This document shows, in pieces, positions 22,627 to 38,241 of a DNA stretch of 64,000 nt (position 1 is its first letter; every line of letters begins with the position of its first letter). The stretch lies in the NCBI GenBank assembly GCA_963575745.1, contig CAUYUJ010021059.1, positions 682,584 through 746,583 of the forward strand, given 5' to 3'. Both the position numbers and the translations under genes were made by a program. Below the pieces are notes generated by a model. That model had not been told where the DNA came from. It saw only the letters and a program-made list of their open reading frames with translations, and ran no database searches. The stretch is from Prorocentrum cordatum (taxonomy: Eukaryota > Sar > Dinophyceae > Prorocentrales > Prorocentraceae).

Positions 22627-24232
22627 CCGCACTCTCGTGCGGTCAGCTCTTGCTCTTCTTATCCTCACGCTATCCGGCACGATCTTCGTGACCAACTACC
22701 ATCCTGCGCCACCACTCCAACTACATGTACGAGGATCAATTCAAGAGCAAGAAGCAACACGAGAGGTACGACGTCTAGACAACAACATTGGTACCATATG
22801 CGCTTCATCACTACGCTACTACCAACCGCTCGGCAACGAGCCAAAAGCGCAGTACTTGAAGCAGAGGCGGGGAGACCCGCAAGATAAAGCGCCTCGTAGA
22901 CTTGACAAGGCGCTACAAACCCTACCCCAGCGCGGCAACGCGCCTGATAACCACCCATATCTTCACAGCCTTGGGTTTGTCATCTTCGCCATCATATGGT
23001 TTGCGCTGGGGGCAGCAATCGGACACATGCGCCGAGGAGACAACAGCACAGATGGGCAAACACATGGCCCATACTGGGACCCTCAAGGCAGCGTGCCTTT
23101 CCGCGAATACGTTTATGAGGTCAACGCGTGGCTTAACGTCACAAGCGGACGCATGACGCCACAGGCCCAAGCAGCCGCCATACAACGCGGCCTGGGTGGC
23201 CTAGCGAGGACACTCGCCATGAGGGTACCACCTGACACTATAAACTATGGTGCGGACATCGATGGTGTCCACACCGACCCAGTAACATACATTATGCTCC
23301 TCTTAAGCATGAAGTTCGAACGCCTGGAAGATGAGCGCCAGCTCACTTCAGGCACTCAGCTCATCGACTTTCATGTGCCTCACGGAGAACGAATCGATGC
23401 AACCCTCACTCGGTTCGAGATGGCCCGTCTTGGGGCACAGTCGGTGGGGCTTGACCTTCCCAACTTCCAACTGCTCACTACTATCCTGTTCCGCGCCCTA
23501 GGCGTTGGCAACCAGCGAGCCATGGAACTCTTACAGCCACTCAACCACCAAATGCCCCGAACACAACAACAGTATGATGAGTTGTGTGAGAGGATGCGTT
23601 CGATTGGCCATTTGTCAGAACGGTCTCCTGGCAATATAGGATCAGTATTTGCATGGGGAAGGGGAACTGGCAGTGGAAATTTCTATACTACCTTAACCAC
23701 TGAAGCTCAGCCTGGAGATGGGCCCTCAAACATATGGGCCGACGATCCTGGATAATATACTGCCCTACTAACAGGGGATCGTTCACAACCAAGCTGGGCA
23801 ACCAGCCCTCCTCCTAGAGAACCTCAACCACACCGTTCCCTATGGGGTGAAGCGAATCCCCTAAACGACGGTGTATCCACCTACCTAGGCAATGACGACT
23901 TCGACTCCGGCACCGACACCGATGCCATATCATCAGATGGTATCGAACCCCTAGATTGGTCCGATATCATGCAAATGGACGGGGACAGTCAGCGTGCCGA
24001 ACACCTGTTCTGGTTATTACAACAGGCAAAGCGGAGGTGGAGGAGGTTCACACGAAAACCAGTGCGTCGTGTTAGGAGGAGGATACGGAGGAGCTTCAAA
24101 GCAGAATGTAAAGGCAAACGGGGTCGCCGAAGGTTGAATGGACGAGGCATCTCGGCTTTCCTCCAGAGGCTTTCAGATGATCAGTATGATGAGATATTTT
24201 TCGGGGGAAAAAGGCCGTGGAAAAGGCCGTAG
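22615..24232 (+). CDS. gag-like frame of the copia element, interrupted by a stop
   Basis: One frame is open from the primer binding site to a TAA at 23753-23755 and continues in the same frame to a TAG at 24230-24232. The first internal ATG is at 23027, so the start is uncertain. Upstream residues include two hydrophobic stretches (LALLILTLSGTIFVTNY; GFVIFAIIWFALGAAIG). The part after 23060 (EYVYEVNAWLNVTSGRMTPQ...LLLSMKFERLEDER) has the look of a copia gag capsid region. The tail is Arg/Lys-rich (WRRFTRKPVRRVRRRIRRSF), suitable for RNA binding. Three GNRA hairpins in this frame encode LGNEP, RGDPQ and RGNAP. The frame leads into the next one near a GGGGGAAAAAGG run. Confidence 0.7.
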
Positions 24233-25895
24233 GGATACCTCAGGCAAAGGTAAAGGTAGGCGGGGAAACCCGCGAGGTAGAGACGGCCAGATCCTAAAGT
24301 GCCATGAGTGTGATAGTACCGATAAGATTGTAAAGGATTGTCCAGCGAAGGGAAATGGAAAGGGCAGATCAACCGAAGTCCATTTCGGCTCAAGTGAACC
24401 AGCTATTGAATACTTGAGCCTCCAAGATTTCGAGGCTGTGAAACAGATATTTTTCACTTGGGCTAGCAGTATGGACAATTTGGATGAGCTCGAGGCGTAC
24501 GGCCATGGACTGTACGCGTACTACCTCGAGTACCTCCGCAGGTTTGTTCTCGGTAATATCGAACTTACGCCTGTGGAAAACGGAACGCTGGGAAACCAGC
24601 CCCTTTCTCCTTTCGACTGGATGTTCGGCAACCCAGGCAACATCATGGCCTACGAGAGCAGCGACGAGGAAGTCACTGTTGAGGCCTCGCCGTCGGAGGT
24701 TGACTACAACCTTCGACGTCAACCCGACCTTATGCCTGGAAACCGGCCCACTCCAGTATATCCTCCAAATCATGGTGATCTGATGGAATTAGAGGCGCAA
24801 GCATTCACCGTGGGCGTGCCAGGAAACCCACACGTGCCACCTGGCATGCTCGCGCCAGGCGAGTACGGACCGCACACGATACTGCAGACTCTCATGCAGA
24901 TGCACGCTGTACTGGTCGTAGCATATCCCGAGAGTCAAGAGAGTGTCGAGAGTGGCCACATGATGCTACAAGACACCGATGCTTGTGACGACTCGGAGTT
25001 AGTATTTGCGGCCCTTACTCTCATCGACAGCGTGCACCCTGAGGACGTGCAGCGACATGTGTGGTATTCTGGAGGGAGATGGCGCCAAGCCCTTGAAAGG
25101 GCCATCTCCATGCGTGGACAGGCTCTCCCTCCGCCGGGATGGGGTGTCCAGGCGGCGGGACTACAGCCCAACCACACGGCCATGCGAAATGTTATCGGGC
25201 AGCCTTCATATGACTATGATCATCTCGAGGCGCGCGCTATGCTCGGTAACCAGCCTGAGCCGACTACCGTGCCGCCGACGCCGGGACAGTCAAGCGATGC
25301 TCAGACGCCTGCGCAGCAGGGGAACCTGCCCGTCCTGGCTGGACCAATGACCATCGTCATTGGCAATCCTATGTCAGAAGATGAAGAAGGTGATGGATGT
25401 GGGATGTGCGAGGACGAGACCACCACCCTCACGATGATGGAAGTCAATGGTGAAGACGAGGAGGTGGATTTTAGCCCAGACAGTCCTGACACACCACCAC
25501 CCGCACAGGAGCCAATCATGCCAGACTCCAGTCAGCAGGGAGACCTGCCTGCCCAAGATGCGCCTCCTGCGGCCCCGCAGGAACCCCCGCCGGCTCCTGC
25601 TCAGGCTACGTCGGCGTCATCATCTGATGAACATGCCAGGAGGTCTCGCTCGCATCCACGCCTTAGGGACGACCCTCACCCTCAAGCACGGCTCCCACGC
25701 GAATGGAGGCAAGCAGCCCCATCAGAGCATGCCTCTCGACGAGGGGGTCAGTTGCTCGCCTACAACGACCCTAGGCGCCAAACAGGTGAGCACTCTGCCT
25801 TTGGAACAAAGGCAACCCAGCCTACAGGGATACCCGAGGCAGGTCCATACGGGGTGGCTATCAGCTCGCGACGAACATTCGTCGCCCTGAGATAG
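24138..25895 (+). CDS. zinc-knuckle and low-complexity linker part of the polyprotein
   Basis: The frame starts inside the gag tail, shifted +1 relative to it, and contains a basic Gly-rich stretch (GRGKGRRDTSGKGKGRRG) followed by CHECDSTDKIVKDC. That is a CCHC zinc knuckle in spacing (C-x2-C-x4-x-x4-C) but with Lys where His is expected. A long acidic, Pro-rich region with no recognised fold follows. Six GNRA hairpins lie within it (24260, 24587, 24734 and 25241 with mismatches, 25316, 25535). It ends at TAG 25893-25895. The role is probably nucleocapsid RNA binding plus spacer. Confidence 0.7.
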   Translation: MDEASRLSSRGFQMISMMRYFSGEKGRGKGRRDTSGKGKGRRGNPRGRDGQILKCHECDSTDKIVKDCPAKGNGKGRSTEVHFGSSEPAIEYLSLQDFEAVKQIFFTWASSMDNLDELEAYGHGLYAYYLEYLRRFVLGNIELTPVENGTLGNQPLSPFDWMFGNPGNIMAYESSDEEVTVEASPSEVDYNLRRQPDLMPGNRPTPVYPPNHGDLMELEAQAFTVGVPGNPHVPPGMLAPGEYGPHTILQTLMQMHAVLVVAYPESQESVESGHMMLQDTDACDDSELVFAALTLIDSVHPEDVQRHVWYSGGRWRQALERAISMRGQALPPPGWGVQAAGLQPNHTAMRNVIGQPSYDYDHLEARAMLGNQPEPTTVPPTPGQSSDAQTPAQQGNLPVLAGPMTIVIGNPMSEDEEGDGCGMCEDETTTLTMMEVNGEDEEVDFSPDSPDTPPPAQEPIMPDSSQQGDLPAQDAPPAAPQEPPPAPAQATSASSSDEHARRSRSHPRLRDDPHPQARLPREWRQAAPSEHASRRGGQLLAYNDPRRQTGEHSAFGTKATQPTGIPEAGPYGVAISSRRTFVALR

Positions 25896-26026: not shown

Positions 26027-26545
26027 TTGAGCCCGAATAGAGGCTGCACTGCTGCAAAGGAGGGTCATCCACCGTTGGTTCCTATGACCCAGGCTGAGAT
26101 CGACGAGATCAACCGTCGTCTCGGAACCACGGCTCACCGGAGCCCTATGGCCGAGGAGGTTCAGCCTCCGAGAGGACTTGTGCCTATTACCCAGGAAGAG
26201 AAAGATGCGCTCAATCGTCTTCCTGGAATGCGGGGAAACCCGCCTGACGTCTCCAGTCAGGCCCAACAGCCAGAGATGATGGATGACGATGAACAGAAGG
26301 TTCAGCGAGCCGCAGCAGATACGGAGCGCAGGCGAGTAGCAGACGAACGCGCCCGCGAGGCAACCCGCAGCATTCCTGCTGGAGTCACAAAAGATCTATA
26401 TGAAGGGGGCAAGGAAGCCCCCACTCCAACCGAAGGCCAAGAGCGAAACACGTGCACCCAGGACGCCTTCGGGGGAAAGACAGAAAACGTCGGCCCGCTC
26501 AGAGGAACTCGGGTTCGATGTGCAGATGGAGAGGCCCCGTTCTGA
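26027..26545 (+). CDS. polyprotein linker with an internal LVPxTQ duplication
   Basis: A frame between the zinc-knuckle segment and the Tpt1-like segment. It contains two similar 18-20-residue units: LVPMTQAEIDEINRRLGTT and LVPITQEEKDALNRLPG. The hairpin at 26230 follows the second and encodes RGNPPD; a one-mismatch copy is at 26355. A charged helix (EQKVQRAAADTERRRVADER) comes next. The coding signal then passes to another frame near 26400. No function recognised. Confidence 0.5.
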   Translation: MSPNRGCTAAKEGHPPLVPMTQAEIDEINRRLGTTAHRSPMAEEVQPPRGLVPITQEEKDALNRLPGMRGNPPDVSSQAQQPEMMDDDEQKVQRAAADTERRRVADERAREATRSIPAGVTKDLYEGGKEAPTPTEGQERNTCTQDAFGGKTENVGPLRGTRVRCADGEAPF

Positions 26546-28541
26546 AATGCCGAAGTCACCGACTCGAGCAACTCCTGCGCAGAGACCTGACCCCAGGCAA
26601 CAACCTCAGGACTCCTCGGAGGTCCGCAGACGACAGCCTAGCCGTAGCGGCTCTATCGCCAGCAAGGCCAAGGCTTTCGAGCGCACAGGGTTTACCCCTA
26701 CGCCGGCCTCGCCTGTGGCGACACGCTCCAAGAGGTCTGAGGAAGGTGCTCCATCTAGGGGTACCTGGGTGCCTGAGATCAGGGGCAGCGCCAGCCGAGA
26801 AACACCGCGGGGAAACCCGCCAGGCGCTGCAGCTGCAGCATCCTCCTCCTCAGGAGCCGCAGCCTCTTCGGCGACAGGGGCTCCTTTGCGGGGAAACCCG
26901 CCTGAGGATAAGCTGCATCACCCAGGGGATACTTCCTTTACCAGCGGGAGTCAGGCGTTAATCAATGATCGACGTGCCCTGCGGAATCTTCCACCGATGC
27001 GCTCGGCGGACGAAGCGTTCATGGGGAGCTGCAGGCAGAAAGGTCTTGTTCCGAGAAGCAATCATACACTCAAGCAGCTTAGTAAATGCCTCAACAGGAT
27101 CTGCAGACACGCGCCTGATAGACCACACAATGCAGCGTGGAGCCTTGAGACGCTCGACGATCGCGATGGATGGATCAATCTCGATGAGCTCGCACGCGAG
27201 TTTCCGCGGCACAACGGACGTACGAGACAGGACGGGTACAACCCGAGAATGGATGAGGCCAAGATCATCGCCGAGACCTTCTACGATAGAACGGTTGACC
27301 AGATGGCTGCCATCATGATGGCGATCGCCCACGTTCGCGAGACGGGCGGTGAAGAGAAGCAGCGTCTGCAGTTCAAGGTCCTGGTGCGAGATTCTGGCAA
27401 ATCCGATATATTCATCCGTGCCTCGCAAGGGCACTCGTGGACGCTCAAGGTCCCTTGGTCGTTGTACAAGTACATTGTACTGCACGACAATCCTGCCGGG
27501 AGACCGGCCCCATGCCCCGAGGTTGCCACGCACGGCACACGGTGGATAGCCTTTGAGGGCATCATGTGGCATGGCCTTTCTTGCCGTAAAGAACACAACA
27601 CCAAGCAGAGAGGGACTGGCCGATCACGCATCCACTTTGTTCCGACGCTTCGTCGTCGCGGCGTGCAGAGTGGATGGGACCCCGACTCCGAAATCGCTAT
27701 CTTTGTGGACTGGCACCAAGCCCTGAAGGACGGGATCGAATTTTGCTGGCCCGACAATGGGGTTCTCCGATCAGAAGGAAAAGACGGCATTATTGAGCCG
27801 TATTATATTACACACGTGGAAGAACTCCCCACAGGAAATCAATGGCGGAACCCAGAATATCTGGGCAGTCGCCATGCACGCGTCTCCACTGCCATAATGA
27901 CGGCCCCGAACAGGTGGAACACTGTGGGCAGTGCTAGTATCAAGCACAGATGGTCTCTTGACCGAGAGGCTAATGAGCCTCATACGGTTCATGGTCAAAG
28001 ACAGGTGGGGGACCATTACAGCCCAACAGTGCTGGGAAACCAGCCCGAAATCCACCAGATCTTCATGATCAACGAGAGCGAGGCAGGAAGCGCGGCTCCA
28101 AGCCGTGCTCCAAGCCAAGGGCCTAGTGCCATATCTTGGCAGGTCCTCAGCACCTCGGATCTGGATCAGATCGCGGCTGCTTTAGATCCTGAGCAGGTGG
28201 AACAGCTAGCGGACAGACTGTGCCAGCAAGATCCCTGGGCCGCAGGTCAGGGAGCTATGTCCGCCATGGTGACACGTGACCGCCAGGCCACGCAGGGAAA
28301 CCGGCCCGTTAATGGACTCAGAAACGACATGCCCGAACCGCAGGGAGACCCGCAAACGTTCGGCCGCATCTTCGGAGAGCCTGCTCGATTCGAGCAGATG
28401 CTAGGGAGCCCCTCGCATAGCATGCACACCGAGGGGCATGGCCCCAGTGGCGACACCACCAGCGCAGTCTCCGTTTGGGACTCCTGGTCGGTCTGCCACG
28501 AATGGCACTCTCATGGAGCGGATCGCCGCGGCCAGAGCTGA
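26400..28541 (+). CDS. Tpt1/KptA-like RNA 2'-phosphotransferase domain in the copia polyprotein
   Basis: Tpt1/KptA enzymes transfer a splice-junction RNA 2'-phosphate to NAD+. After about 190 low-complexity residues, residues ~220-490 show the family motifs in order: LKQLSKCLNRICRH (family LSK-LRH), DGWINLDEL, QRLQFKV, FIRASQGHSW at 27411-27440 (family IRAxQGHS), ATHGTRW (family HGT, NAD site), IMWHGLSCRKEHNTKQRGTG with RIHFVP, LRRRGVQSG, then IAIFVDWHQALKDGIEFCWP and NGV. The Arg-His, Arg and Arg residues of the known catalytic tetrad can all be placed. Spacing is longer than in bacterial KptA. The tail after ~500 is a linker with hairpins at 28031, 28292 and 28340. The domain has no known role in retrotransposition; it may be a captured host gene. 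Confidence 0.85.
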   Translation: MKGARKPPLQPKAKSETRAPRTPSGERQKTSARSEELGFDVQMERPRSEMPKSPTRATPAQRPDPRQQPQDSSEVRRRQPSRSGSIASKAKAFERTGFTPTPASPVATRSKRSEEGAPSRGTWVPEIRGSASRETPRGNPPGAAAAASSSSGAAASSATGAPLRGNPPEDKLHHPGDTSFTSGSQALINDRRALRNLPPMRSADEAFMGSCRQKGLVPRSNHTLKQLSKCLNRICRHAPDRPHNAAWSLETLDDRDGWINLDELAREFPRHNGRTRQDGYNPRMDEAKIIAETFYDRTVDQMAAIMMAIAHVRETGGEEKQRLQFKVLVRDSGKSDIFIRASQGHSWTLKVPWSLYKYIVLHDNPAGRPAPCPEVATHGTRWIAFEGIMWHGLSCRKEHNTKQRGTGRSRIHFVPTLRRRGVQSGWDPDSEIAIFVDWHQALKDGIEFCWPDNGVLRSEGKDGIIEPYYITHVEELPTGNQWRNPEYLGSRHARVSTAIMTAPNRWNTVGSASIKHRWSLDREANEPHTVHGQRQVGDHYSPTVLGNQPEIHQIFMINESEAGSAAPSRAPSQGPSAISWQVLSTSDLDQIAAALDPEQVEQLADRLCQQDPWAAGQGAMSAMVTRDRQATQGNRPVNGLRNDMPEPQGDPQTFGRIFGEPARFEQMLGSPSHSMHTEGHGPSGDTTSAVSVWDSWSVCHEWHSHGADRRGQS

Positions 28542-29457
28542 GCATGGCACAGCTCTTTTGAGCCTGATGCCACCGGGCACTCCAACGAGTCTGCAGGGAA
28601 ACTTGCCCGGCACTCCAGTACACAACCGACCTTTTGCTGGCCAAACTATTGCTGCTGGAGTGCCTGATGACTACCGCGCAAGGGTGGCAGCTGCGGTGCA
28701 ACAGGTGCCGAGTCACAACCTGCCCCACCCGAGCGGTCAGAGGTGGAGGCCAGCCTGGTCCTGGGAGCCAGAGGGTCCGAATCCACGTGACCCTGCTCGG
28801 CAGCGAGCCTTTATCCCGGCCTTCAATGCTCATCCGAGCATGGCTCAGGGCCAGAGGCCAGCGCCAGCACCAATGGATCCGCCACTGTACCCAGACGGGT
28901 CTAGAGTCCCGAACAGATTTGTTCGCGAGACGGCGGATCAGTTTCATAGCCTTACGAATGTGCGCTGCAGTGACCAGCCCATGTATCCGCACGTGGATTT
29001 CATGCCTGCACCGACAACGCCAGAGGTGGCCGTCCAGCCTACTGCCCATTCGATATCACCAGGCAGTCGGGGAGTACCAGGCTACATCAGGCAGACGTAC
29101 CACACTCAACAGGCGTGTTTTAGGCGCAGGCAGGTAGTACAGAGTGTACGTGACCAAGCACGTGCAGCCGCACTTGAGGTCGTGAGGAACAGAGGCTCAC
29201 CCATGCGAGGAAACTCGCCAGCCGTGTCGCCCGCAGCCTCCACTACGGCAGCTCCTCCAGCAGTGGTTGCCGCAGCGCCGGAGGCACTGGCTCCCGCAGG
29301 AGATCCTCCAGCTGCTTTCCTGGGCTCCGAAACAGTCCTGGAGCGGCGGCGGCGGGTGTGCCCTAGGGCGGCAGACGTGGAAATCTATACTGGATGGAAG
29401 ACACCTGCGCGGTATGCCTCGAAGAGTTTCTGCCGAGGGAGAACATCTACCGCTTGA
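28438..29457 (+). CDS. Pro/Ala-rich linker of the polyprotein
   Basis: It overlaps the end of the Tpt1-like frame by about 100 bp in another frame. The protein is rich in Pro, Ala, Arg and Gln. The segment RWRPAWSWEPEGPNPRDPAR and a charged helix (QVVQSVRDQARAAALEVVRN) can be seen, but no known domain. Hairpins at 28593 (encodes QGNLP) and 29205 (RGNSP) are in frame. The coding signal moves to the RING frame at about 29380-29394. Confidence 0.5.
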   Translation: MAPVATPPAQSPFGTPGRSATNGTLMERIAAARAEHGTALLSLMPPGTPTSLQGNLPGTPVHNRPFAGQTIAAGVPDDYRARVAAAVQQVPSHNLPHPSGQRWRPAWSWEPEGPNPRDPARQRAFIPAFNAHPSMAQGQRPAPAPMDPPLYPDGSRVPNRFVRETADQFHSLTNVRCSDQPMYPHVDFMPAPTTPEVAVQPTAHSISPGSRGVPGYIRQTYHTQQACFRRRQVVQSVRDQARAAALEVVRNRGSPMRGNSPAVSPAASTTAAPPAVVAAAPEALAPAGDPPAAFLGSETVLERRRRVCPRAADVEIYTGWKTPARYASKSFCRGRTSTA

Positions 29458-29762
29458 GGTGCAACCATCTGTTCCACGAGGAGTGCTGGAACTCGAATGT
29501 GGTGGGCCATGTTGCGAACCAGCGAGAAGGAGATCCTCGGCAACCAGTATGTGCTATCTGCCGAGCGCCAGGTATCATAGCGCCATCGTTTCCATGGACC
29601 GGCTCCGTCACTCAGGCTCCCGAACAGGCAGCGAGGGAGCTGCGGGAGTCGAGGAGCATGGTGGAGGAAATGAAGGCCAGTACGCTGGACAGGCAGACAG
29701 CACAGTCCCAACAGCGGGGAGACCCGCCGGAGGAGGTGAGGACGCCGATGGAGACGGGGTAA
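29394..29762 (+). CDS. RING-H2 finger domain in the copia polyprotein
   Basis: The first 55 residues contain a complete RING-H2 signature: C-x2-C-x14-C-x1-H-x2-H-x2-C-x21-C-x2-C, including CAVCLEEFLPRE, RCNHLFHEECW and CAIC. RING-H2 domains usually recruit an E2 enzyme and act as ubiquitin ligases. The Leu after the second Cys and the Trp after the sixth ligand are typical positions for E2 contact. The rest is a helical tail with the hairpin at 29714 (RGDPP). It lies between the Tpt1-like and protease segments in the same transcript. Whether it is made as part of the polyprotein depends on a frame change upstream. Confidence 0.82.
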   Translation: MEDTCAVCLEEFLPRENIYRLRCNHLFHEECWNSNVVGHVANQREGDPRQPVCAICRAPGIIAPSFPWTGSVTQAPEQAARELRESRSMVEEMKASTLDRQTAQSQQRGDPPEEVRTPMETG

Positions 29763-29780
29763 TTCGACCAGCTGATCCCG

Positions 29781-30575
29781 ATGACGGCGCCACAGCAGGG
29801 AAACCTGCCTAATACCCCACCTGCGCCGATTCTGCCAACTCATTACGAGCCTGGAGTCGGGCAGGTGGCTCCTCCGATGTCACCCCAAGGTGGGGGTGGG
29901 ACCGAGTTGCCACTAGACCCTGAACAGCTGCGAGAACTGCGTGTTCGCCACTTCCAGACCCAGATGGACAACGCACACACCACGTTCATGCTGGACGCCG
30001 ACAATCCTGAGAGCGAGTCGTTTGACCTCTCAGACTCTTCAGTGGCGACAGCGGCAACAGCAGTCAGGGCCGTCGAGCTCTCAGCTACGAACAATGAGTT
30101 CGACGAGTGGTTGCAATGCAGGGACCACCTTACGAATGAAGGATTACAGGACATCGCCCTTCATACGTATTTGACGCTGACGCGACGCACTACCCGCGAA
30201 CAGTACACGAGCATACGTGATGAGTATGCCAATTGGTGGGAGGAACAGGGCACTCAAGTCCAGAACGTGTCGTACTTCCAGTACATCGACCTGACACGTA
30301 TGGCCGCAGGAAGGCCAGGTGCCAGCACGATGCGGGGAGACCCGCCAAGAAGCACGACCGAGATGCGGGGAAACCCGCCAGACAGTGCAGCCGGCACGTC
30401 AGAGACAGTGCACATCAAGCAGCCGAGTAAGACATTTCTCGAGGATGGTGGAAATTCAATCCTCATAGACGTGGGCTCGAAGATTAACGTCATGGGAAAA
30501 ATACGAGCCGCAAGTTCTTCCAGGCTGCTGAGGCACATAAACGTCTTTGTACGTTTGAACTTCGTTCTCGATTGA
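29781..30575 (+). CDS. linker and N-terminal half of the copia protease
   Basis: In the same frame as the RING segment, after a TAA at 29760-29762. An acidic helical region is followed by LEDGGNSILIDVGSKINVMG, the active-site strand of a retropepsin-type aspartyl protease (Asp-Val-Gly-Ser for the usual Asp-Thr/Ser-Gly). Hairpins at 29795, 30332 and 30365 encode QGNLP, RGDPP and RGNPP. The protease continues after a frame change near 30575. Confidence 0.72.
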   Translation: MTAPQQGNLPNTPPAPILPTHYEPGVGQVAPPMSPQGGGGTELPLDPEQLRELRVRHFQTQMDNAHTTFMLDADNPESESFDLSDSSVATAATAVRAVELSATNNEFDEWLQCRDHLTNEGLQDIALHTYLTLTRRTTREQYTSIRDEYANWWEEQGTQVQNVSYFQYIDLTRMAAGRPGASTMRGDPPRSTTEMRGNPPDSAAGTSETVHIKQPSKTFLEDGGNSILIDVGSKINVMGKIRAASSSRLLRHINVFVRLNFVLD

Positions 30576-31357
30576 ATATCAACGGGGTAGGCGAGGGGTC
30601 GGCCCCAGCTGATGCCGCGGGCACTTTCAGCATTGCCTGCGAGTGCCAGGGCTCGACCCAGCTCGACTCGTACAAGACTATTGTGTCAGGCTGTGGCAAG
30701 GACCTGCCAGCTATCCTGGGCCCCAACAGTATGCGGGACAAGCGCGCTATCATTGTGCTCGAACGAGGCCAGGAGAAGCTGATATTCCCTTGGAAGGGAC
30801 AGGTCAAGATGGAACTTCCCGAGGGCTCCAAGATCATGTCGACAACGAAGTTGCCATCAGGACATCTGTCAGTCAGGTGTGATCGATTTGGAGCCGCGGG
30901 GCAACCCGCCTCGGGTACAAGTACAACATCGTTCCAGACGGTGCTGACAGGCGAGCCGTCCCCTGCGCAAGAGCGCCAACAATTGCAGGGAAACCTGCCT
31001 CAGGGGTTGCTCGCGATACTCGCCAAGGCGACGATGAGAGGCGACAGCGTCGATGATCTGGAGACGTTCGATTGCTTCGTAGCCAGGACACTGGCCCAGC
31101 ATTGCGGACTTGTACCCATGGATGCTGGACGGTCCCGCCGGAAGATAGTGATGGGATACACGAGCCATGAGCTGCAGACGGTCAACGACGCAAGGTCGAA
31201 AGGCTTATTGAAGCAGCTGGTGGATAATCCATCCATGCTGGCCACGTTTGCGGCGCAATCCGCCTCTGAGGCTACCGCGCGCTGCAGTGCTGAGCTCCAG
31301 CATCTGAGGGAAGCCCAGATGCTGGCAGATGTTGCAGGCGCATCTTCTTTATCTTGA
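30572..31357 (+). CDS. C-terminal half of the copia protease and linker
   Basis: NINGVGEGSAPADA continues the protease fold, and DLPAILGPNSMRDKRAIIVL with EKLIFPWKGQVKMELPEGSK resembles the flap and C-terminal strands of dinoflagellate copia proteases. Hairpins are at 30896 (AGQPA, a different codon register) and 30985 (QGNLP). The tail is helical. It is separated from the first half by a frame change, so this copy may not make an active protease. Confidence 0.65.
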   Translation: MNINGVGEGSAPADAAGTFSIACECQGSTQLDSYKTIVSGCGKDLPAILGPNSMRDKRAIIVLERGQEKLIFPWKGQVKMELPEGSKIMSTTKLPSGHLSVRCDRFGAAGQPASGTSTTSFQTVLTGEPSPAQERQQLQGNLPQGLLAILAKATMRGDSVDDLETFDCFVARTLAQHCGLVPMDAGRSRRKIVMGYTSHELQTVNDARSKGLLKQLVDNPSMLATFAAQSASEATARCSAELQHLREAQMLADVAGASSLS

Positions 31358-31765
31358 AGATGGCAGGGCGACGCTGCCCCCTCGTCGCCTTGCCTGATAG
31401 CCGAAAGGCCAGGGGGTGACAAGGACAGCGGGGCAACCTGCCATAGTAAAAGAGCTTTCGTCATCGAAGATACGAGAAAGGCTTGCGCTGACCTCCGCAC
31501 CCGAGGTTAGTTATGTCTGTGATCGCATCTCCCACAATGAGATCATGGCGACTGTGGGCACAGATTACCTGGGTGCGGTGATCAGTGGGGACTATACACT
31601 AATATGGGTTAGTACCCTAGGTGACTGGTACGTACGAACCCCAGGAAAAGAGAGTAGCCCCACACTGGTCGCGCATTCAAAACCTTCTGACAGAAGCTAA
31701 GAAGCTCCGCGAGAAAATTATAGTGTTAGGCCCCCCAGGATACGTTTGGAAGTTATCTCCAATAC

Positions 31766-32368
31766 GTGATACTCTGGAAGATCTTAATTAAGTTGACGGT
31801 AGTGCGGATGCGGTTATGTCATTTCGGTATTCGGTTTAATCTGCAAGACAATCCACCGAGTGGTACCTATATGCAGGTAGCCACATCGATACCGACTAGC
31901 TCTAAGTTGTGGGCATGTACGTGCAAACTGGCGATACCACAACATGTGTTGGATTGGTACGGCCAAACGGTACGACATGCTGAATGGCGAGCCCAGACAC
32001 GCATCACACTTATCCGTCACCTCAACGACAAAATCCTGGGAAGCAGCACTACGCACGGGAACGTGCCGATATACTTGAACACCTATACACGTACGGATCA
32101 CAACATACATCACTATGTGGCGACCAATAAAGGGGGACCGAAATTGTCTGATGTCATCCGACGTGTAACGATCAACCTGGACGCCAACGCGATTATTCAG
32201 GATATCGCAGTAGCCGATCAACCAACAGGATATGATTGGGCATGCACCACTACCTACAGGGGTTGCCAACATCAGTACACGGATGTACTGGCAGCCCGAG
32301 GAACCTGTCATGTTCGGGAACGAGCCTACTCAATCACCACAGAAACCCAGACGCGTCATCATAGATGA
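31766..32368 (+). CDS. hypothetical segment of the copia element
   Basis: An open frame with a balanced, folded-protein-like composition (QHVLDWYGQTVRHAEWRAQT...KILGSSTTHGNVPIYL). It matches no family I recognise. The hairpin at 32053 encodes HGNVP. The preceding stretch 31358-31765 contains short frames and the hairpin at 31428 but no recognised domain. This could be part of the polyprotein between protease and methyltransferase-like regions. Confidence 0.4.
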   Translation: MILWKILIKLTVVRMRLCHFGIRFNLQDNPPSGTYMQVATSIPTSSKLWACTCKLAIPQHVLDWYGQTVRHAEWRAQTRITLIRHLNDKILGSSTTHGNVPIYLNTYTRTDHNIHHYVATNKGGPKLSDVIRRVTINLDANAIIQDIAVADQPTGYDWACTTTYRGCQHQYTDVLAARGTCHVRERAYSITTETQTRHHR

Positions 32369-33443
32369 CTGTCCTTCTCCCCTCCCGACTCTGGCGATTG
32401 ACGCAGGTACCTACTCATCAACGACGATGGGCACGCAGACCGGTGGACAAGACGAGCAAGTCTTACTTACGGAGTCGCGTATCAAACAGAAGGAAAGGCT
32501 CAAAGCCGAAAAGGAGGCAGGCATCAAGCCTCGCCGCATCAAAAAGCACGTTGAAGATGGAAACGATGATTGCGGTGCCGACTTGTCAGGGCTCGGACAG
32601 GATCTTATGGCGGCCTGGAGCATTGACGTCCCTGTCGAGCTGATTAGCTCAGATGAGGAAGATGACCTGTTCCTTACCCTCCCCACATCTATGCCCGACA
32701 CACACGCGGACATATATATCATAGTGGCTACTCTATGTTATGGTCACAACAACTGCGTGGATATGTTGGAGCTTTGCGGAGGAGAGGGTCGCATTTCAGA
32801 GCTTGCCTTCTCAAGGGGTCTCTCCTCAGGAGGCAACTTAGACAAGACCACGTGTGTCGACCTGGGAGATCCCTCGGTGCAGCGAGCTGTAGAGCACTAC
32901 TTCGCAGTATGCCACGTACGAGTAGCCATGCTACAGCCCAGCTGCCGCACCACAGGACCACCATCCTACTACAACTACAAAGCCAACTATAACACTTGGG
33001 AACAGCATCATAAATAATATGTGCCACGCATAACTTACTGTGGTAAAACAGATGCTACTCAAGATAATGCACGGAGGTGGTTTACACGCGAACAACCCAC
33101 AGGAACATGGGTGGATGATATTTCCCCATGGAAAGAACTTGCCGACCGATCGCATATCACAACCGCACGCATCGACCAATGTGCGACGGGACTTAAAGAT
33201 ACGGCTGGTGACTATATCAAGAAGCCGACAAATATCACCAGCAACGACGAGACAATTCTTAAACCCTTTGAGCGACTCAAGTGCAACGGTAAGCATGCGC
33301 ACGCACAACCGTGCAACAGGGAGCTTTCACTGGCACAAAAATACACTCGAAGACTGCAGTCTGCCTTTGTGGAAGCCGTCTATCTGGCGAAAGCCATCGA
33401 CACCACGCGCGGAGAAGCGCCTACACGAACTGCGCATGCTTAA
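32232..33443 (+). CDS. SAM-methyltransferase-like domain of the copia polyprotein, one in-frame stop
   Basis: A basic coiled region (IKQKERLKAEKEAGIKPRRI) precedes CVDMLELCGGEGRISELAFS, which looks like the glycine-rich SAM-binding motif I of class I methyltransferases. LQPSCRTTGP sits where the cytosine-C5-type Pro-Cys motif IV would be. The frame stops at TAA 33015-33017 and continues unchanged with ATTARIDQCATGLKDTAGDY, IKKPTNITSNDE and LKCNGKHAHAQPC. From memory this arrangement is common in dinoflagellate copia polyproteins, but its activity is unknown to me. The Pro-Ser-Cys in place of Pro-Pro-Cys and the stop argue against catalysis in this copy. The hairpin at 32312 encodes FGNEP. Confidence 0.65.
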
Positions 33444-33764: not shown

Positions 33765-33896
33765 TGGAAACCCTTACCCAAGCCTGGGGAGGGCCACGCT
33801 TCGGCATCGGGTGGCCGTCAGGGCGCTCGCGCCAGACCACCACGACCACGAGCCTTTGGGAACGCTGATCCTACATCTGGCGCCAGCAGTTACGAC

Positions 33897-35966
33897 ATGC
33901 TGCGAGACGCGCCCGAGCGTGGAAACACGCCCTCCGCGTCTTCAGGCGAGCCGCCACAAGTAGCGGCCCGCCGTGGTCGCCTGCAAGGCGTACCTCCACC
34001 ACCAGATGCAGTTGACGAGGGGGGCCGACTGCGGAGAGCCACGAGGAACCCTCTTGCCTCAACCGGCTCGGGGGCTCCACGACTGCCCGACTGGACGAGA
34101 TTTGACATCCAACGCAGTCTGCAAAACCTCCGTAGTCACGAACCTCACGTAGTCAAAAAGGAACTCCGTAAACTGCACCTACGGTGGCATCATGCGAAGG
34201 AACCCGAGATGAGGCGGATCCTAGACAAAGTGGGACTGGATAACGTGCGATTAAATATGACCAAAGAAATCTGTGACACATGTCGGGAATGTAGAGCATG
34301 GGAACGTCCAGGTAATTCTACGCTACCTTCCGTAAGCCTTCCTGGAAATTGGCTTGACGAAGGCGAAGTAGATCTCATGTTTTACAAGAAACGAACCATA
34401 TTTCATATTATGGACCGATGCATCCGCCTGGCAGCAGGTCGAGAGATTGCTGATCGAGAACGTGACACTATACTCGACGCCTACCACTATTGCTGGATTG
34501 CCGATCATGGACCCAAAGTCTTGTATTCAGATGGAGAAGGCGCCCTCAACAATGACACTGCCAAGGCCATGATGGCGAACAAGGGTGCGACACTTCGTAT
34601 CCGAGCACCTGGCCAACACGCGACCTCGATCGAGTCACGTAACGGCATCCTTAGGGGTACTCTCCATATGATTGAGGAAGAGCTGAACAGACACAACATC
34701 CCCGTTGTATTTACTAGAGCATTGGCTGAAGGCATCTTTGTCACCAACGCTTTCACGTTTTACAACGGAGTATCGCCGTACCAAGCACACACTGGGCGAC
34801 AGCCCTCTTTTCTTCCTGACCTCGACACCCTTGACTTCCCTAGGGGGCCCGAGACGTCAGGCCACGAACGAGAACGCCGTGTGAGGGAAGTTAGCCTGGA
34901 AGCAATAACTCAAGCCACGGGTGTAGCTAAGACACATCGTGCTCTCAGGGCTAAGACGGCCCCAGATGGTGCTCGCCTTTACTCAGCAGGGGACTTGGTC
35001 GACTATCACCGACCTACAGCCACTAAGGACGACCATGGAGGCTGGAATGGCCTGTTTCCTGTGATCCGTAACGTGCCTGAACGAGGACACGTTGTCGTCA
35101 AGGCAGGATCGCGTGAGGTAATTGTAATGTACCCTGATGCTCGCCACACGCTATACATTGAATGCCTTCTTACCAGGGAACTTGGCATGGACAACATGGC
35201 CATGCAGACCGTCCTTACATATGTGGCACACCTTGGTGCAGGGAAACCTGCCGAAGTCTTTGGCTATATTTCAGACTACAAGGGGAATCTCAATCTTTCG
35301 GACGACAGCAAGTTCCACCCGCGCGTACACCTTGCACTGCAGTATCTCGTGCGAAATTATTTCCGGGCTGAACGTGTAATAGCCGTGAGATTGGCCAAGA
35401 ACGTGTCAAATCTACCTGCAGTAAAGTACGCCACCGGGTCTGCACTCATCCACTACGACAATGATGTTAACCCAGCCTTCCACTATTATGAGTGTGTGGG
35501 CACCGGCCTGAACATCTCTCAAATCACTGGTAGCACTCACTCCAGACTCATCCAGTGCCTGACGTCACAAGTTCCTTCCCTAGGATTTCATGATGACCTT
35601 GCCAAGTATCAGCACTTGGGCACAACGTCTGGAGAACACGACCAGCCTGGAGACAGGCCTCCACCAGACACCCCAGGTGCTTCATCACCAAGTGAAAGTC
35701 GCCTGTCTACAATCTACGAAGAAAGCGAGGGACATGACATCGAGGCTATGATGATGGAGGAGTGGTACGATGAGTTGCGTATGGACCTTCATCCCACAAC
35801 GGTTATCGACGACCATCTCTACTGCGTCCCAACAACTATGCTGCCCGACCAATGTGTCTTGGTCTCAGCATTCGTGGACGAGGAAGATACCGTAGTGTCG
35901 GAGATGCTCGGAGACGAGCCTGAACTACAAGAGCCCTGTCTTATCTCTATGCTCGACTGCACCTGA
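33897..35966 (+). CDS. copia integrase with C-terminal extension
   Basis: A 689-residue open frame. The N-terminal zinc-binding region is LHLRWHHAKEPEMRRILDKV...ICDTCRECRAW (HHCC type). The catalytic core has GEVDLMFY (first Asp), VLYSDGEGALNND (second Asp) and ESRNGILRGTLHMIEEEL (Glu), the D,D-E triad of retroviral-type integrases, which insert the cDNA. NAFTFYNGVSPYQAHTGRQP is the conserved post-catalytic segment. About 350 residues of C-terminal region include GDLVDYHRPTATKDDHGGWN, an SH3-like copia feature. Hairpins at 33917, 35238, 35645 and 35906; the one at 35238 is in a different codon register (AGKPA). This is the best-preserved frame of the element. Confidence 0.9.
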   Translation: MLRDAPERGNTPSASSGEPPQVAARRGRLQGVPPPPDAVDEGGRLRRATRNPLASTGSGAPRLPDWTRFDIQRSLQNLRSHEPHVVKKELRKLHLRWHHAKEPEMRRILDKVGLDNVRLNMTKEICDTCRECRAWERPGNSTLPSVSLPGNWLDEGEVDLMFYKKRTIFHIMDRCIRLAAGREIADRERDTILDAYHYCWIADHGPKVLYSDGEGALNNDTAKAMMANKGATLRIRAPGQHATSIESRNGILRGTLHMIEEELNRHNIPVVFTRALAEGIFVTNAFTFYNGVSPYQAHTGRQPSFLPDLDTLDFPRGPETSGHERERRVREVSLEAITQATGVAKTHRALRAKTAPDGARLYSAGDLVDYHRPTATKDDHGGWNGLFPVIRNVPERGHVVVKAGSREVIVMYPDARHTLYIECLLTRELGMDNMAMQTVLTYVAHLGAGKPAEVFGYISDYKGNLNLSDDSKFHPRVHLALQYLVRNYFRAERVIAVRLAKNVSNLPAVKYATGSALIHYDNDVNPAFHYYECVGTGLNISQITGSTHSRLIQCLTSQVPSLGFHDDLAKYQHLGTTSGEHDQPGDRPPPDTPGASSPSESRLSTIYEESEGHDIEAMMMEEWYDELRMDLHPTTVIDDHLYCVPTTMLPDQCVLVSAFVDEEDTVVSEMLGDEPELQEPCLISMLDCT

Positions 35967-35983
35967 CGAGGGCTATTCTCTTG

Positions 35984-37147
35984 ACAGTGATGAACATGGT
36001 CCTTATGTTGAGCTATGTTTCACACCAGAAATGTCAAAGGTAGTGTTGGATCAGACCCAACTTGCACAGCTTGAAACTGACATGGTCGCAACGATGAGAG
36101 TATATGTATAATCGGCTGCTAAACGTGCTGTGGTAGTCAAGGAAGCTGACCTACTCACCAAAGCCGATATAGCAGCACACCCTAAATAGGTTAGTGAAGC
36201 TTTGTACACCGAACTCAAGATCTGGCTTGACAACCGGTGCTTTGAGATGTTTGACCAACATCATGACATCCAGATATGTATACAAGTGGAAGTTTGTGAA
36301 GGTAGGCACCGAGAACGTTAAAACCATCTGTCTCAGACTTGTCCTTGCCGGATTCATGGACGCGGAGGCGTTCGATGTAGAAACCTTTTCAGGAATTGCT
36401 CGAAGGCAGTCCCAGAGGCTCCTGGCAAGTGAGGCGGCATGTCATCCAGAATGGAGCTTAGTATCTATGGATATCGACAAAGCGTTCCTCAAAGGTCTGA
36501 CCTATGAGGAACTTGCTCATGCCACCGGCGAGGAAACTCGCATGGTTTGCTTCACTCTTCCACCAGGAAGTGCCCAGGTGCTTCGTGCACTACCAGGCTT
36601 CTCTTCTTACGATGAAAGCCGACACTGCCTCAGGTGCCTCAAGCCAGGAACGGGTACAAAGGACGCCCCAAGAGCGTCCTCCCTCAAGCTTCGTACGACT
36701 ACACGAGCTATAGGCCTCATACCAGCAAGTTACGACCCTGAGTTTGAATTCAGTCAGGATCTGTTAACGGCAAAACATGTCGACGATATCAATATGACAG
36801 GCCTAGAGAAAAACGTAGATGACTATGTACAACGTGTCGAAAAGGTGTTTGGTAAATGCAAGCTCAACAAACATTCTTATACGAACTGCGCCGTTCGCTA
36901 CACTAAGAATGAACAAGGGGATGTGATCATGGATCAGGACGAGTACATTAAACAATTACGTCCTATCACACACCCTGAACTTACGGGAGCGGCGGCAGAC
37001 GCCAAAGCTACCAAACTCATCACCGACATGTTCGTTAGCCTGCGAGGAGCTCTCGCCTATGCCCTTCTTAGTCAAGTCTGGCTTATGGTGTATGTGGTCT
37101 CTCCCAGAAGATCCAAGAGCCCGCCAACTTACAAGTCAGACGACTGA
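35984..37147 (+). CDS. copia reverse transcriptase, frame-disrupted at its N-terminus
   Basis: The N-terminal part (about 36100-36240: KRAVVVKEADLLTKADIAAH, then SEALYTELKIWLDN) is split by stops and frame changes. From 36194 one frame gives TSRYVYKWKFVKVGTENVKT, LVLAGFMDAEAFDVETFSGI, WSLVSMDIDKAFLKGL (first catalytic Asp region) and AKHVDDINMTG, with the Asp-Asp pair of the RT active site. Integrase before RT confirms the copia group. The hairpin at 36528 encodes GEETR, not the common GNxP register. TGA at 37145-37147 separates it from RNase H. Confidence 0.85.
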
Positions 37148-37152
37148 ATGCT

Positions 37153-37848
37153 GTGGCGCGAAAGCTGATCAGCAGGCCGAAACGCATCACCTTCCCTCGG
37201 ATGAAACCGACGAATGAAGTAGACGTACACAGTGATTCGGGGTATCGGAAGCTCACCGGGGAGGAGGACGATGAAACCAAGGGCTACGGTATTCGTGGGG
37301 CTATCGTACGGCGAGGAAACTCGCCTCAAGGCAAGTCCGTCATTCACCTTTGCGACGGACTATGTAAATCACACCGACTGCAGGTGAGGTCCAGCTATGC
37401 CGCTGAGGCGCTTGCAGCTGCACACAATCTTGATGAATGTTATCCCACGCTCATCACTCTCCACGAGCTCAAGGCAGGGGCACTTACTCCACGACAACTA
37501 CGAGATATGCGTGAAGTTGGAGGCCTAGCTATCAAAGTATCCCTTACTATAGACGCTGAGTCTGTATACAAGTCGCTATCCAGCAAAGATCTTAATATAC
37601 CGACGGAACGGACTTTGTTGGGACATATCAGCTGGATACGTGAGCTCATGGATATAGGCATAGTGCATAACGTACAGTGGTGTGATACTAGAGACATGAC
37701 CGCAGATGGGCAGACAAAGGGGAGTATCGATCGGGAGCTGCTTTTGGAAGTGATGTCAGGCACTCAGTCATTTAAGTATGACGTGAAGCAGTTTGTTCCC
37801 TTTCGTGGCCCTAAGGACAGCAGTCAGCCTAAGTCGAATCAGTTTTAG
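37153..37848 (+). CDS. copia RNase H domain
   Basis: The four acidic positions of RNase H can be placed: EVDVHSDSGYRK, RSSYAAEALAAAHN, SLTIDAESVYKSL and WCDTRDMTADGQTKG. It removes the RNA strand during cDNA synthesis. The hairpin at 37311 (GGCGAG-GAAA-CTCGCC, six pairs) sits between the first two motifs and encodes RRGNSP. It ends at TAG 37846-37848 and is followed by the 3' non-coding region. Confidence 0.85.
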   Translation: MARKLISRPKRITFPRMKPTNEVDVHSDSGYRKLTGEEDDETKGYGIRGAIVRRGNSPQGKSVIHLCDGLCKSHRLQVRSSYAAEALAAAHNLDECYPTLITLHELKAGALTPRQLRDMREVGGLAIKVSLTIDAESVYKSLSSKDLNIPTERTLLGHISWIRELMDIGIVHNVQWCDTRDMTADGQTKGSIDRELLLEVMSGTQSFKYDVKQFVPFRGPKDSSQPKSNQF

Positions 37849-38241
37849 TCAGTCCTTGTTGCCCCCGCGGTCCAGTTTGCCAGCACGGGCGCCTAATACA
37901 GAGGCGCCCTCCTAGCCGCTCGGAAGCGAGCCCTACTTTTCACGCTTGGCAGCGAGCCTGTTCAGATTGGTTCAGGCTCTTTGCTTTAATACCTTTTTGC
38001 CTGGAGAGGAATAGCCTGTTTGGCTTACCTCTAGCTGGGCCGATAGCCCTTTGATATCCAAGGGGCTATCCTGCGTATGCGTGAAAATGTTTTGCGAGGA
38101 AACTCGCCGGCGAATAATCTCGCCCTACAGTCTGGTGTTAGGCCAGACTGTGCGTACTGTTTTTCTTGCAAACAGTTGTGCGCGCGGCCTTTCTAGAGCC
38201 TAACGGCTGCGCGGCTATACTCTCCGTCTCCTCCCCTCCCG
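37849..38241 (+). ncRNA. structured 3' non-coding region with a chain of hairpins
   Basis: Perfect or near-perfect hairpins in sequence: GGGCGCC/GGCGCCC (37887-37909), GAGCCTG/CAGGCTC (37954-37979), nested AGAGG..AGCC/GGCT..CCTCT (about 38004-38031), GATAGCCC/GGGCTATC (38042-38070), the GNRA hairpin at 38094-38107, CAGTCTGG/CCAGACTG (38128-38150) and ACTGTTT/AAACAGT (38156-38176). The end (38180-38236) is an imperfect inverted copy of the LTR segment at about 38276-38330. No polypurine tract is visible before the 3' LTR; there is a pyrimidine run (CTCCTCCCCTCCC). Confidence 0.75.

Follow-up and report, generated by a model that had tools for sequence, protein, structure and literature searches.

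The retrotransposon and its coding parts

The window, a stretch of 64,000 nucleotides from Prorocentrum cordatum, contains one 16.1-kb Copia-type LTR retrotransposon (22379-38474; all features given below lie on the plus strand). It is bounded by two LTRs of 233 bp, the 5' LTR at 22379..22611, with ends set from alignment and sequence, and its direct repeat, the 3' LTR, at 38242..38474 (22378-22611 versus 38241-38474, 94%). A GAGGG target-site duplication was read from the sequence at 22374..22378 and 38475..38479. The reverse transcriptase open frame (36173..37144) has an RVT_2 match (E 1.4e-7). The putative primer-binding site TGGTAGCGGAGC (22612..22623), also read from the sequence, adjoins the 5' LTR and resembles sites of the initiator-tRNA type. 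For comparison, five other copies (A-E, in ten pieces) were drawn from the same 4.13-Gb genome.

Comparison of copies delimits a Gag capsid-like region of 257 aa (22982..23752), with 92-94% amino acid identity in copies B-E and fragmentary in copy A; its predicted structure has a pLDDT of 38.9, and the model leaves a capsid fold unconfirmed. An arginine-rich stretch (AKRRWRRFTRKPVRRVRRRIRRSF..., 24026..24133) is kept in all five copies, with two substitutions in copy A. The zinc knuckle region (24300..24341) is degenerate in the window (CHECDSTDKIVKDC), has the CCHC pattern in four of the five copies (A-D) and reads CHERGSSDHLVRDC in copy E; the zf-CCHC profile match of copy D (E 7.8e-4) is just under the cut-off. 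The knuckle and its position suggest that this part is Gag. Further downstream lie a Tpt1/KptA RNA 2'-phosphotransferase domain (27072..27776; PF01885, E 3.6e-19), a RING finger placed by eye at approximately 29400..29570 (frame broken in the window copy; zf-RING_11, E 1.4e-8, in copy D), an in-frame TGA between ORF1 and ORF2 (31355..31357), arranged likewise in copy D, and an integrase-like or linker open frame (33765..35963) with 14 homologous proteins. The latter frame has no Pfam match itself, and its relative P0012 has a weak rve match. A distant relative is named from Effrenium voratum.

A family of GNRA hairpins on the sense strand

On the sense strand of the element, a 15-nt unit composed of GC-NN-G, a GNRA loop, C-N'N'-GC and a final C recurs 43 times when near-matches are counted; the final C is present in 38 of the 43. 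These are the 44 matches with at most one deviation, minus 33899, whose stem is unpaired; 30 match all fixed positions. Sites were assigned by a pattern scan of the window and comparison with copies A-E.

Among the sites with the GCGGG stem are GCGGG-GAAA-CCCGC C at 26230..26244 (compensatory GCGAG/CTCGC in copies B-E), 26807..26821, 26888..26902 and 30365..30379, the same hairpin followed by G at 24260..24274, GCGGG-GAGA-CCCGC C at 29714..29728 (compensatory GCAGG/CCTGC in copies B-E) and 30332..30346, the same followed by A at 22867..22881, and GCGGG-GCAA-CCCGC C at 30896..30910. GCAGG-GAAA-CCTGC C is found at 29795..29809, 30985..30999 and 35238..35252, GCAGG-GAGA-CCTGC C at 25535..25549 and GCAGG-GGAA-CCTGC C at 25316..25330. 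GCGAG-GAAA-CTCGC C occurs at 29205..29219, 37311..37325 and, 3' of the last ORF, 38094..38108; it is followed by A within the RT domain (36528..36542), and GCGAG-GACA-CTCGC C lies at 23204..23218. GCTGG-GAAA-CCAGC C occupies 24587..24601 (compensatory GCTCG/CGAGC in copy D) and 28031..28045, with GCTGG-GCAA-CCAGC C at 23793..23807. Other stems are represented by GCTCG-GCAA-CGAGC C (22828..22842), GCTCG-GAGA-CGAGC C (35906..35920), GCGCG-GCAA-CGCGC C (22930..22944), GCCGG-GAGA-CCGGC C (27495..27509), GCCAG-GACA-CTGGC C (31082..31096), GCACG-GGAA-CGTGC C (32053..32067), GCGTG-GAAA-CACGC C (33917..33931) and GCCTG-GAGA-CAGGC C (35645..35659).

The remaining sites deviate in loop or stem. The loop of GCTCG-GCAG-CGAGC C (28795..28809) is GCAA in copies A, B, D and E, and that of GCTCG-GAAG-CGAGC C (37918..37932, 3' of the last ORF) is GAAA in the copies. 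G.U pairs are found in GCAGG-GAAA-CTTGC C (28593..28607), GCGGG-GCAA-CCTGC C (31428..31442) and, twice, GCCTG-GAGA-TGGGC C (23710..23724), while GTTCG-GGAA-CGAGC C (32312..32326) has a U.G that is C-G in A-E. GCTTG-GCAG-CGAGC C (37944..37958, 3' of the last ORF) has one pair broken in copies B-E. One mismatch occurs in GCCTG-GAAA-CCGGC C (24734..24748; also in copy E, paired in A-D), GCTCG-GTAA-CCAGC C (25241..25255; paired in A, B, C and E), GCGAG-GCAA-CCCGC A (26355..26369; paired in A, B, D and E), GCAGG-GAAA-CCGGC C (28292..28306; paired in A-E) and GCAGG-GAGA-CCCGC A (28340..28354; paired in copy C but not in A, with no site located in B, D and E). The closing pair of GCGCG-GAGA-AGCGC C (33407..33421) is broken in the window and paired in A-E. 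An additional site outside the 43, GCCTG-GCAG-CAGGT C (34426..34440), is GCCTG/CAGGC in copies B-E.

A 14-nt descriptor of the unit matches the plus strand of the 64,000 bases 32 times (28 fully Watson-Crick, four with G.U) and the minus strand once (G.U); 31 of the 32 (28 Watson-Crick, three G.U) fall within 22828-38107, and the other is at 62378. The fixed-position pattern GCNNGGNRACNNGCC, which does not demand pairing, has 30 exact matches on the plus strand of the element (25 all Watson-Crick, two with one G.U, three with one mismatch), and none on its minus strand or on either strand of the other 48 kb. The preliminary description had put the family at about 30 copies, about 27 of them fully Watson-Crick, with nine different stems: the first figure is exceeded, the second becomes 28 and the third, by our count, is ten Watson-Crick stems. 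The main loops it named (GAAA, GAGA, GCAA, GGAA) agree with ours. It also stated that equal frequency in host sequence or on the antisense strand would refute the structure; in the window, the exact 15-mer occurs nowhere but on the sense strand of the element.

Chance gives far lower numbers. Dinucleotide shuffles of the element (n=1000, 14-nt form) produced a mean of 0.25 fixed-position matches (maximum 3) versus 35 observed, and 0.02 Watson-Crick copies (maximum 1) versus 28; synonymous-codon shuffles in 13 open frames gave a sum of means of about 1.3 Watson-Crick copies versus 26. In the 30 exact 15-mers, selected with pairing not demanded, 92.9% of free-pair cells pair versus 45% after shuffling, and the covariation score is 1.19 versus 0.22, each value being reached by 0 of 500 shuffles. 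Among perfect 5-bp tetraloop hairpins in the element, GNRA-like loops alone stand out. In local folding, mean pairing probability is at or below 0.5 at 11 of the 43 sites, mostly mismatched or G.U, with the fully complementary 22930 and 28795 among them. The same hairpins moved elsewhere in the element fold almost equally (0.69 versus 0.72), so the surroundings contribute little.

GNRA loops are classic docking motifs. They could bind RNA receptors in the same or in another genomic RNA and so compact or pair these molecules, but the loops vary across hairpins (GAAA, GAGA, GCAA, GTAA, GGAA) and the halves of the 11-nt GAAA receptor are not enriched as pairs. In a scan for this one receptor type, with expectations from mononucleotide shuffles, CCTAAG occurred twice versus 4.3 expected, TATGG 14 times versus 11.6, and pairs within 60 nt 0 times versus 0.34. 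We consider docking quite improbable.

Conservation and coding frames

Copies A-E carry hairpins at homologous sites, and complementarity there is as a rule not lost: 191 of 205 complete homologous 15-mers are fully paired, distinct double changes keep pairing in five of five cases, and most or all copies pair at six sites where the window has a mismatch or a weakened stem. No unit was found on the antisense side of the ten pieces. Between the window and the four more distant copies B-E, identity is 94% in the hairpins and 75% in the five bases flanking them on each side; hairpin blocks reach 94.3% and random blocks 81%, with none of 2000 samples attaining the hairpin value. Genome-wide, with element and non-element sequence pooled, GCGNGGAAACNCGCC has 9,890 matches versus 291 for the reversed control, N/N being complementary in 99 of 100 among the matches listed; a loose pattern has 108,589 versus 32,022, which indicates chance background. 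Sense-only occurrence and the pairing kept in copies support the selected, covarying RNA structure first proposed from the letters, and we regard it as near certain that RNA structure is under selection: both arms change together and the hairpin survives, so it is the RNA shape itself that is selected.

Of 248 cells, 247 have G at position 5 and 244 have C at position 10, a count that includes the 43 window rows selected by the pattern itself. GNNA loops fold also in DNA, and the hairpins might have their role in plus-strand DNA, when it is single-stranded in the course of reverse transcription or integration. This we rate very improbable, since stable DNA mini-hairpins prefer C-G closing, against the G-C closing seen here, and sense single-stranded DNA is seldom exposed.

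Small palindromes copied within elements, spreading without benefit to them in the manner of Rickettsia palindromic elements, would account for the many hairpins in variable linkers and for the single stem reused in some lineages (P0028 has PGNR/PGDR eight times, seven followed by I; P0018 has HG[ND]V six times). However, every hairpin is sense-oriented, and compensatory change and conservation above the flanks require selection. At the RT-domain site 36528, none of the 10 other loci compared (two of them apparent duplicates) shows a change, and the alignment with relatives is gap-free at this point (ATGEKER, ATGEATR), so that the site arose by substitution and not insertion. This explanation is already disfavoured, and we hold it improbable.

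The hairpins span the internal region, none being in an LTR. In the ORFs of copy D they use all three frames (26, 6 and 5 of 37, hand-derived), and three window sites lie 3' of the last ORF. These features, with the sense-only orientation, speak for action at the RNA level. In related polyproteins, 63 of 110 linker motifs have complementary codon pairs (26 expected, permutation maximum 44); the xGNx motifs of some clade lineages show little complementarity (P0020 1/7, P0019 1/6, P0022 1/5), and in outgroup proteins 3 of 19 motifs are complementary. At the protein level, hairpin covariation thus appears limited to one clade of elements. Selection for a repeated peptide (xGNxP), with the hairpin a by-product of codon choice, would agree with the 26 of 37 hairpins in one frame and with P0020 and P0022, whose GN motifs are mostly without complementarity. 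As a full explanation it is refuted by the three frames, the post-ORF sites, the loss of most hairpins on synonymous shuffling and residue pairs that covary as complementary codons, and we find it hardly credible.

Possible role of the hairpins

Of the roles that the preliminary description listed as possible (protein docking, packaging, processing), packaging or assembly is our first choice. Our best guess, tentative and given slightly less than an even chance, is that the approximately 40 hairpins serve as packaging signals dispersed along the RNA, with the element's own Gag as their ligand. The genomic RNA would carry some 40 recognition hairpins of five base pairs, each with a G-C-closed GNRA tetraloop and a 3' C. 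As stem pairs 3 and 4 can be nearly any complementary pair, the ligand would read loop shape and closing pairs and not sequence. The arginine-rich stretch and the CCHC zinc knuckle would be the RNA-binding part of Gag, and many Gag molecules along the sense RNA may select and condense it and nucleate the particle, in the manner of the dispersed packaging signals proposed for several RNA viruses. If so, recognition and packaging of this RNA may depend on the hairpin shape.

For Gag speak the arginine-rich stretch (5/5 copies), the CCHC pattern (4/5) and the profile match of copy D; against the packaging reading as a whole, the pLDDT of 38.9, the zf-CCHC value just under the cut-off, the irregular spacing of the hairpins (CV 0.79), the lineages lacking complementarity and the 11 of 43 sites poorly paired in local folding. 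A host RNA-binding protein with a part in the export, stability, localisation or translation of the unusually long RNA would likewise fit shape-specific, sense-only hairpins across coding and 3' untranslated RNA. We judge this unlikely, because the exact 15-mer is absent outside the element in the window and, at the protein level, a single element clade has the covariation (outgroups 3/19), yet a host protein would be open to all elements.

Packaging by Gag can be set beside known systems, and literature text searches found no earlier description of the hairpin family. Retroviral packaging signals are usually in the 5' leader, which counts against this reading. The dispersed signals of icosahedral RNA viruses are degenerate. 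Lambdoid boxB hairpins, to which arginine-rich N peptides bind, share the five-pair stem, the GNRA-like fold and an arginine-rich stretch, which here is in the element, but their loop has five bases, not four, and they occur once or twice, not about 40 times. Rickettsia palindromic elements are also tolerated in coding frames; they are mobile and of about 100-150 nt, whereas the hairpins here are of 15 nt, in a single orientation and conserved in position.

According to PMC7793301, the enterovirus E genome has multiple conserved RNA sites with coat protein affinity, likewise many, small, in coding regions and conserved among variants; they were found by SELEX, while the unit here, in an LTR retrotransposon, is uniform, can be recognised by eye and has free covarying pairs, its binding by a coat protein being putative. 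According to PMC7599994, retroviral NC knuckles bind hairpin tetraloops, and the psi hairpins (HIV-1 GGAG, MLV GACG pair) likewise combine a short stem, a purine-rich tetraloop and a CCHC-knuckle Gag, but as one or a few hairpins with other loops in the 5' leader, in contrast to about 40 along the whole RNA. The same source states that packaging was not significantly affected when the GGAG loop of HIV-1 was replaced; contact with a tetraloop is thus not necessarily a packaging determinant. Ty1, also Copia-type, has an RNA packaging and dimerisation region (PMC5454406) and needs structured RNA for packaging; its cis-acting sequences lie in the 5' terminal part and use kissing loops, whereas the GNRA loops here are purine-rich.

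The hairpin array in the retrotransposon

A single Copia-type LTR retrotransposon, complete at both ends, lies in the window; it is bounded by a 5' LTR (22379-22611, +) and a 3' LTR (38242-38474, +) of 233 bp each, which are 94% alike. The target-site duplication GAGGG is found on either flank, and a putative primer-binding site, TGGTAGCGGAGC, lies directly after the 5' LTR. The reverse transcriptase (RT; 36173-37144, +) matches RVT_2 with an E-value of 1.4e-7 (31.8 bits, cut-off 31.6); an RVT_2-type RT together with the LTRs, duplication and primer site places the element in Ty1/Copia.

The preliminary description counted about 30 GNRA-loop hairpins along this element, and the count holds: its descriptor has 31 sense-strand matches at 22828-38107, one elsewhere on the + strand of the window and one on the - strand. 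Scanning the window with GCNNGGNRACNNGCC, in which complementarity is not required, gave 30 exact matches, all sense and all within the element. Fourteen further sites are off at one fixed position; one of them (33899) was discarded because its stem is unpaired, leaving 43 sites, named here by their start position. Chance in GC-rich DNA was rejected, as shuffled sequence yields 0.02 Watson-Crick copies versus 28 observed. Among the 30 exact 15-mers (21 distinct), 92.9% of the free-pair cells have a standard pair (45% after shuffling), and 20 cells are changed on both sides (5.7 after shuffling). Two of the five measures in the same test, both coarser, do not exceed the shuffles: pairs changed on both sides (454/500) and further pair types (69/500).

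Base 15 is C in 38 of the 43 sites, and G stands opposite it at position -1 in 1 of these 38. As evidence that the stem stops at five pairs this is only suggestive, with P 1e-4 relative to base composition and about 0.007 with a codon baseline of 0.17. Regarding local folding, the mean pairing probability exceeds 0.5 at 32 of 43 sites and averages 0.72 overall. Moved to other positions, the same hairpins reach 0.69 within the element and 0.61 outside; since 0.69 is close to the value in place, the surrounding sequence helps folding little. Rfam covariance models gave no matches in 22300-38600 at E-values up to 1.

Genome-wide, GCNNGGNRACNNGCC has 108,589 matches versus 32,022 for its reversed control (4.13-Gb assembly, element and non-element sequence together). 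Dense arrays of GCCAGGCGACGTGCC and GCCAGGGGACGTGCC were observed at one place in the assembly (G000:C2:1466971-1505910); this repeat satisfies the loose pattern but does not make the full hairpin, and it inflates the loose-pattern count. The narrower GCGNGGAAACNCGCC has 9,890 matches versus 291 for the reversed control. Among 100 places listed for it, 99 are complementary at both N's, with all four Watson-Crick pairs represented, mostly in runs of shared orientation. Dividing the 9,890 matches of this one stem class by about nine per fuller listed run gives an estimate of roughly 1000 element-equivalents carrying the unit. The Prorocentrum cordatum genome is reported at ~4.15 Gbp (PMC10449503).

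Complementarity in other copies and in related proteins

Using the window RT as query, 123 scored places were obtained among 10,474 candidates in the 4.13-Gb assembly. Five other genomic copies (A-E) were each analysed as two separate pieces, those of A and B ending before the 3' end of the element. Identity to the window at the DNA level is 91-94% for copy A and ~75-84% for B-E. The pieces carry 35, 38, 43, 39 and 42 hairpins, respectively (43 in the window), on the sense strand only. The antisense strand, proposed beforehand as a refuting test, has no exact GCNNGGNRACNNGCC in the window element and no hairpin in the ten copy pieces. This sense-only orientation disfavours a DNA palindrome. 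RPE-like palindromic mobile elements insert in either orientation, and the absence of antisense units from the window element and all ten pieces speaks against such a mobile palindrome.

The 43 sites in five copies make 205 complete 15-mers and 10 incomplete ones. It had been suggested that homologous sites losing complementarity would count against selected structure; complementarity is largely retained, with 175 of 205 all Watson-Crick and 191 when G.U is counted. Collapsed over copies, the five distinct double changes relative to the window are all paired (four Watson-Crick, one G.U), so that none leaves a broken pair. Distinct single changes comprise nine that restore Watson-Crick pairing, five from Watson-Crick to G.U and ten that break a pair. 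Compensatory changes include GCTGG/CCAGC to GCTCG/CGAGC at 24587, GCGGG/CCCGC to GCGAG/CTCGC at 26230 and GCGGG/CCCGC to GCAGG/CCTGC at 29714; at 22867 the closing G-C is A-U in copy C. Pairing that is lost or weakened in the window at six sites (24734, 25241, 26355, 28292, 32312 and 33407) is intact in most of the copies or in every one, so the window faults reflect mostly recent decay. The exceptions are 24734, mismatched in E too, 25241, gapped in D, and 26355, in which another pair is broken in C.

Identity to B-E is 94.3% in hairpins, 81.3% in random 15-base blocks and 80.8% in blocks taken no more than 120 nt from a hairpin, and none of 2000 samples is as conserved as the hairpins. By position it is 98% in the fixed stem, 93% in the free stem, 90% in the loop and 92% at C15. 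A larger repeat enclosing the hairpin was rejected: over the five bases flanking it on each side identity drops to 75%, and the 43 sites have no consensus beyond the 15th base. Copy A, the close one, shows little contrast (95.5 versus 93.3%). Site 36528, inside the RT domain, is identical in all ten other loci compared, two of them probably duplicates.

A profile built from four proteins identified 28 related proteins, one of which comes from Effrenium voratum. In the main frame the hairpin encodes x-G-[N/D/S]-x', with the requirement that x and x' have complementary codons; this allows residue pairs such as H with V, L with E/Q, P with R, and R with A/P/S/T. The clade contributes 110 linker motifs in 23 proteins; 63 are complementary (75 with G.U), while shuffling x' gives 26.3 (sd 4.3, maximum 44; 20,000 shuffles, relatedness ignored). 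The background rate is 15.9%, and conserved-domain sites, in columns picked by eye, are complementary in 4 of 79 cases. One homologous column fits in 11 of 14 proteins with five kinds of pair (R-S, R-T, H-V, L-E and P-R). The protein sequence is here dictated by an RNA constraint, the pairing of codons being what makes the linker residues covary. A protein repeat as the full explanation was rejected on the synonymous shuffle, the use of three frames and the sites after the last ORF.

Fit is poor in P0020 (1/7), P0019 (1/6) and P0022 (1/5), and P0023, P0025, P0031 and P0002 have no fits in one or two motifs each. As outgroups fit in only 3 of 19 cases, the trait belongs to one clade, some parts of which have it weakly or have lost it. 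Two relatives, P0028 and P0030, repeat PG[ND]RI, often preceded by D; as predicted from the protein, D plus PG[ND]RI would encode an extended stem, GATCCG...CGGATC. Within a lineage, the stem sequence seems homogenised. A P0028-like subfamily was not found in this genome, where none of 150 scored places is closer than 71%. No relatives were confirmed in viral contigs or genome contigs.

A possible ligand and known systems

The sense orientation, the sites after the last ORF, the three frames and the compensatory changes suggest that the hairpins act as RNA. The combination of a GNRA loop, closing pairs that hardly vary and freely changing middle pairs suggests a ligand that recognises shape. 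A plausible candidate is the element's own Gag, which would bind hairpins along the genomic RNA and so promote assembly or packaging. The arginine-rich stretch of Gag is retained in all five copies, and the CCHC knuckle (CX2CX4HX4C) is present in copies A-D and lost in E and the window; in copy D the zinc-knuckle profile match has an E-value of 7.8e-4, below its cut-off. The predicted model of the Gag capsid-like region is poor and did not confirm a capsid fold, and a PDB sequence search with the capsid-like region returned no matches at E-values up to 1. On the strength of the arginine-rich stretch (5/5 copies) and the CCHC knuckle (4/5), we tentatively favour dispersed assembly or packaging signals. 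Binding by a host RNA-binding protein ranks second and is considered unlikely. A more specific form of the Gag reading, itself doubtful, is that the whole genomic RNA is an array of some 40 uniform, shape-coded Gag docking sites and that certain lineages have each drifted to a stem sequence of their own, uniform from site to site, giving a lineage-specific, protein-read address code through coding sequence, even inside the RT domain.

The 11-nt GNRA tetraloop receptor is CCUAAG...UAUGG. Its half-sites occur 2 and 14 times, with no pairs within 60 nt and not above shuffled sequence; this receptor, the only type tested, was rejected. Lambdoid boxB has a five-base GNRA-like loop on a five-pair stem, whereas the loops at the 43 sites have four bases, as the pattern demands. 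Five-pair stems that close a five-base loop show no enrichment, with 17 in the element (1.06/kb versus 1.63/kb elsewhere).

In RNA viruses, dispersed packaging signals are contested on account of their degeneracy. Like them, the array has several hairpins with one motif along a genomic RNA (43 in the window) and evolutionary conservation of the sites. The unit in this element is almost exact, recurs about 40 times and covaries at homologous sites; by estimate, one genome has roughly 1000 element-equivalents of it. These properties make the packaging idea directly testable; the array is also a clean natural model for a protein reading RNA shape along coding sequence. In how they work, the nearest known systems are dispersed packaging signals (PMC7793301) and retroviral NC-tetraloop contacts (PMC7599994), but the available text of these sources describes no uniform covarying array of ~40 through coding sequence. 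None of the papers listed by a literature search, with subscription journals mostly not covered, describes the hairpin array.

Coding regions and other features of the element

The internal order is Gag-like region, Tpt1/KptA, RING finger, integrase-like region and RVT_2 RT. The window copy is decaying, its reading frame broken several times; the relative P0029 is a single protein of 2159 residues whose RT and RNase H parts are 84-87% identical to it. Pfam gave no match in 33765-35963, upstream of the RT. This region may be integrase-like, judging from relatives: rve matches P0012 below threshold (E 0.0057) and the more distant P0035 with an E-value of 7.7e-7.

The Tpt1/KptA RNA 2'-phosphotransferase domain (27072-27776, +; window region 26340-28538, inside ORF1) has an E-value of 3.6e-19, and 2.9e-21 in copy D (L046:1-5700, -). 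It might strip 2'-phosphates that would block reverse transcription. The Tpt1-bearing ORF has no homologues among 8000 scored candidates, and a search of titles and abstract openings found no publication on Tpt1 in retrotransposons. A RING finger occurs in the same ORF (window ~29400-29570) and is clear in copy D (L045:6755-9901, -; E 1.4e-8).

One stop codon parts ORF1 from ORF2 in the same frame in copies D (L045 reverse complement 3148-3150) and E and, by eye, in the window (31355-31357). Since the ORFs are in frame with a single stop between them, the arrangement suggests that Pol may be expressed through stop readthrough rather than frameshift. Ahead of the 3' LTR, where a polypurine tract is usual, the sense strand instead has a pyrimidine-rich tract (38221-38241). 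The LTR ends are ACTTTAA...CAGACT, not TG...CA. Outside the element, an ORF at 61090-62166 has a weak CENP-K/filament-like match, and one at 50446-51594 has a clear C2 domain (E 6.5e-15).
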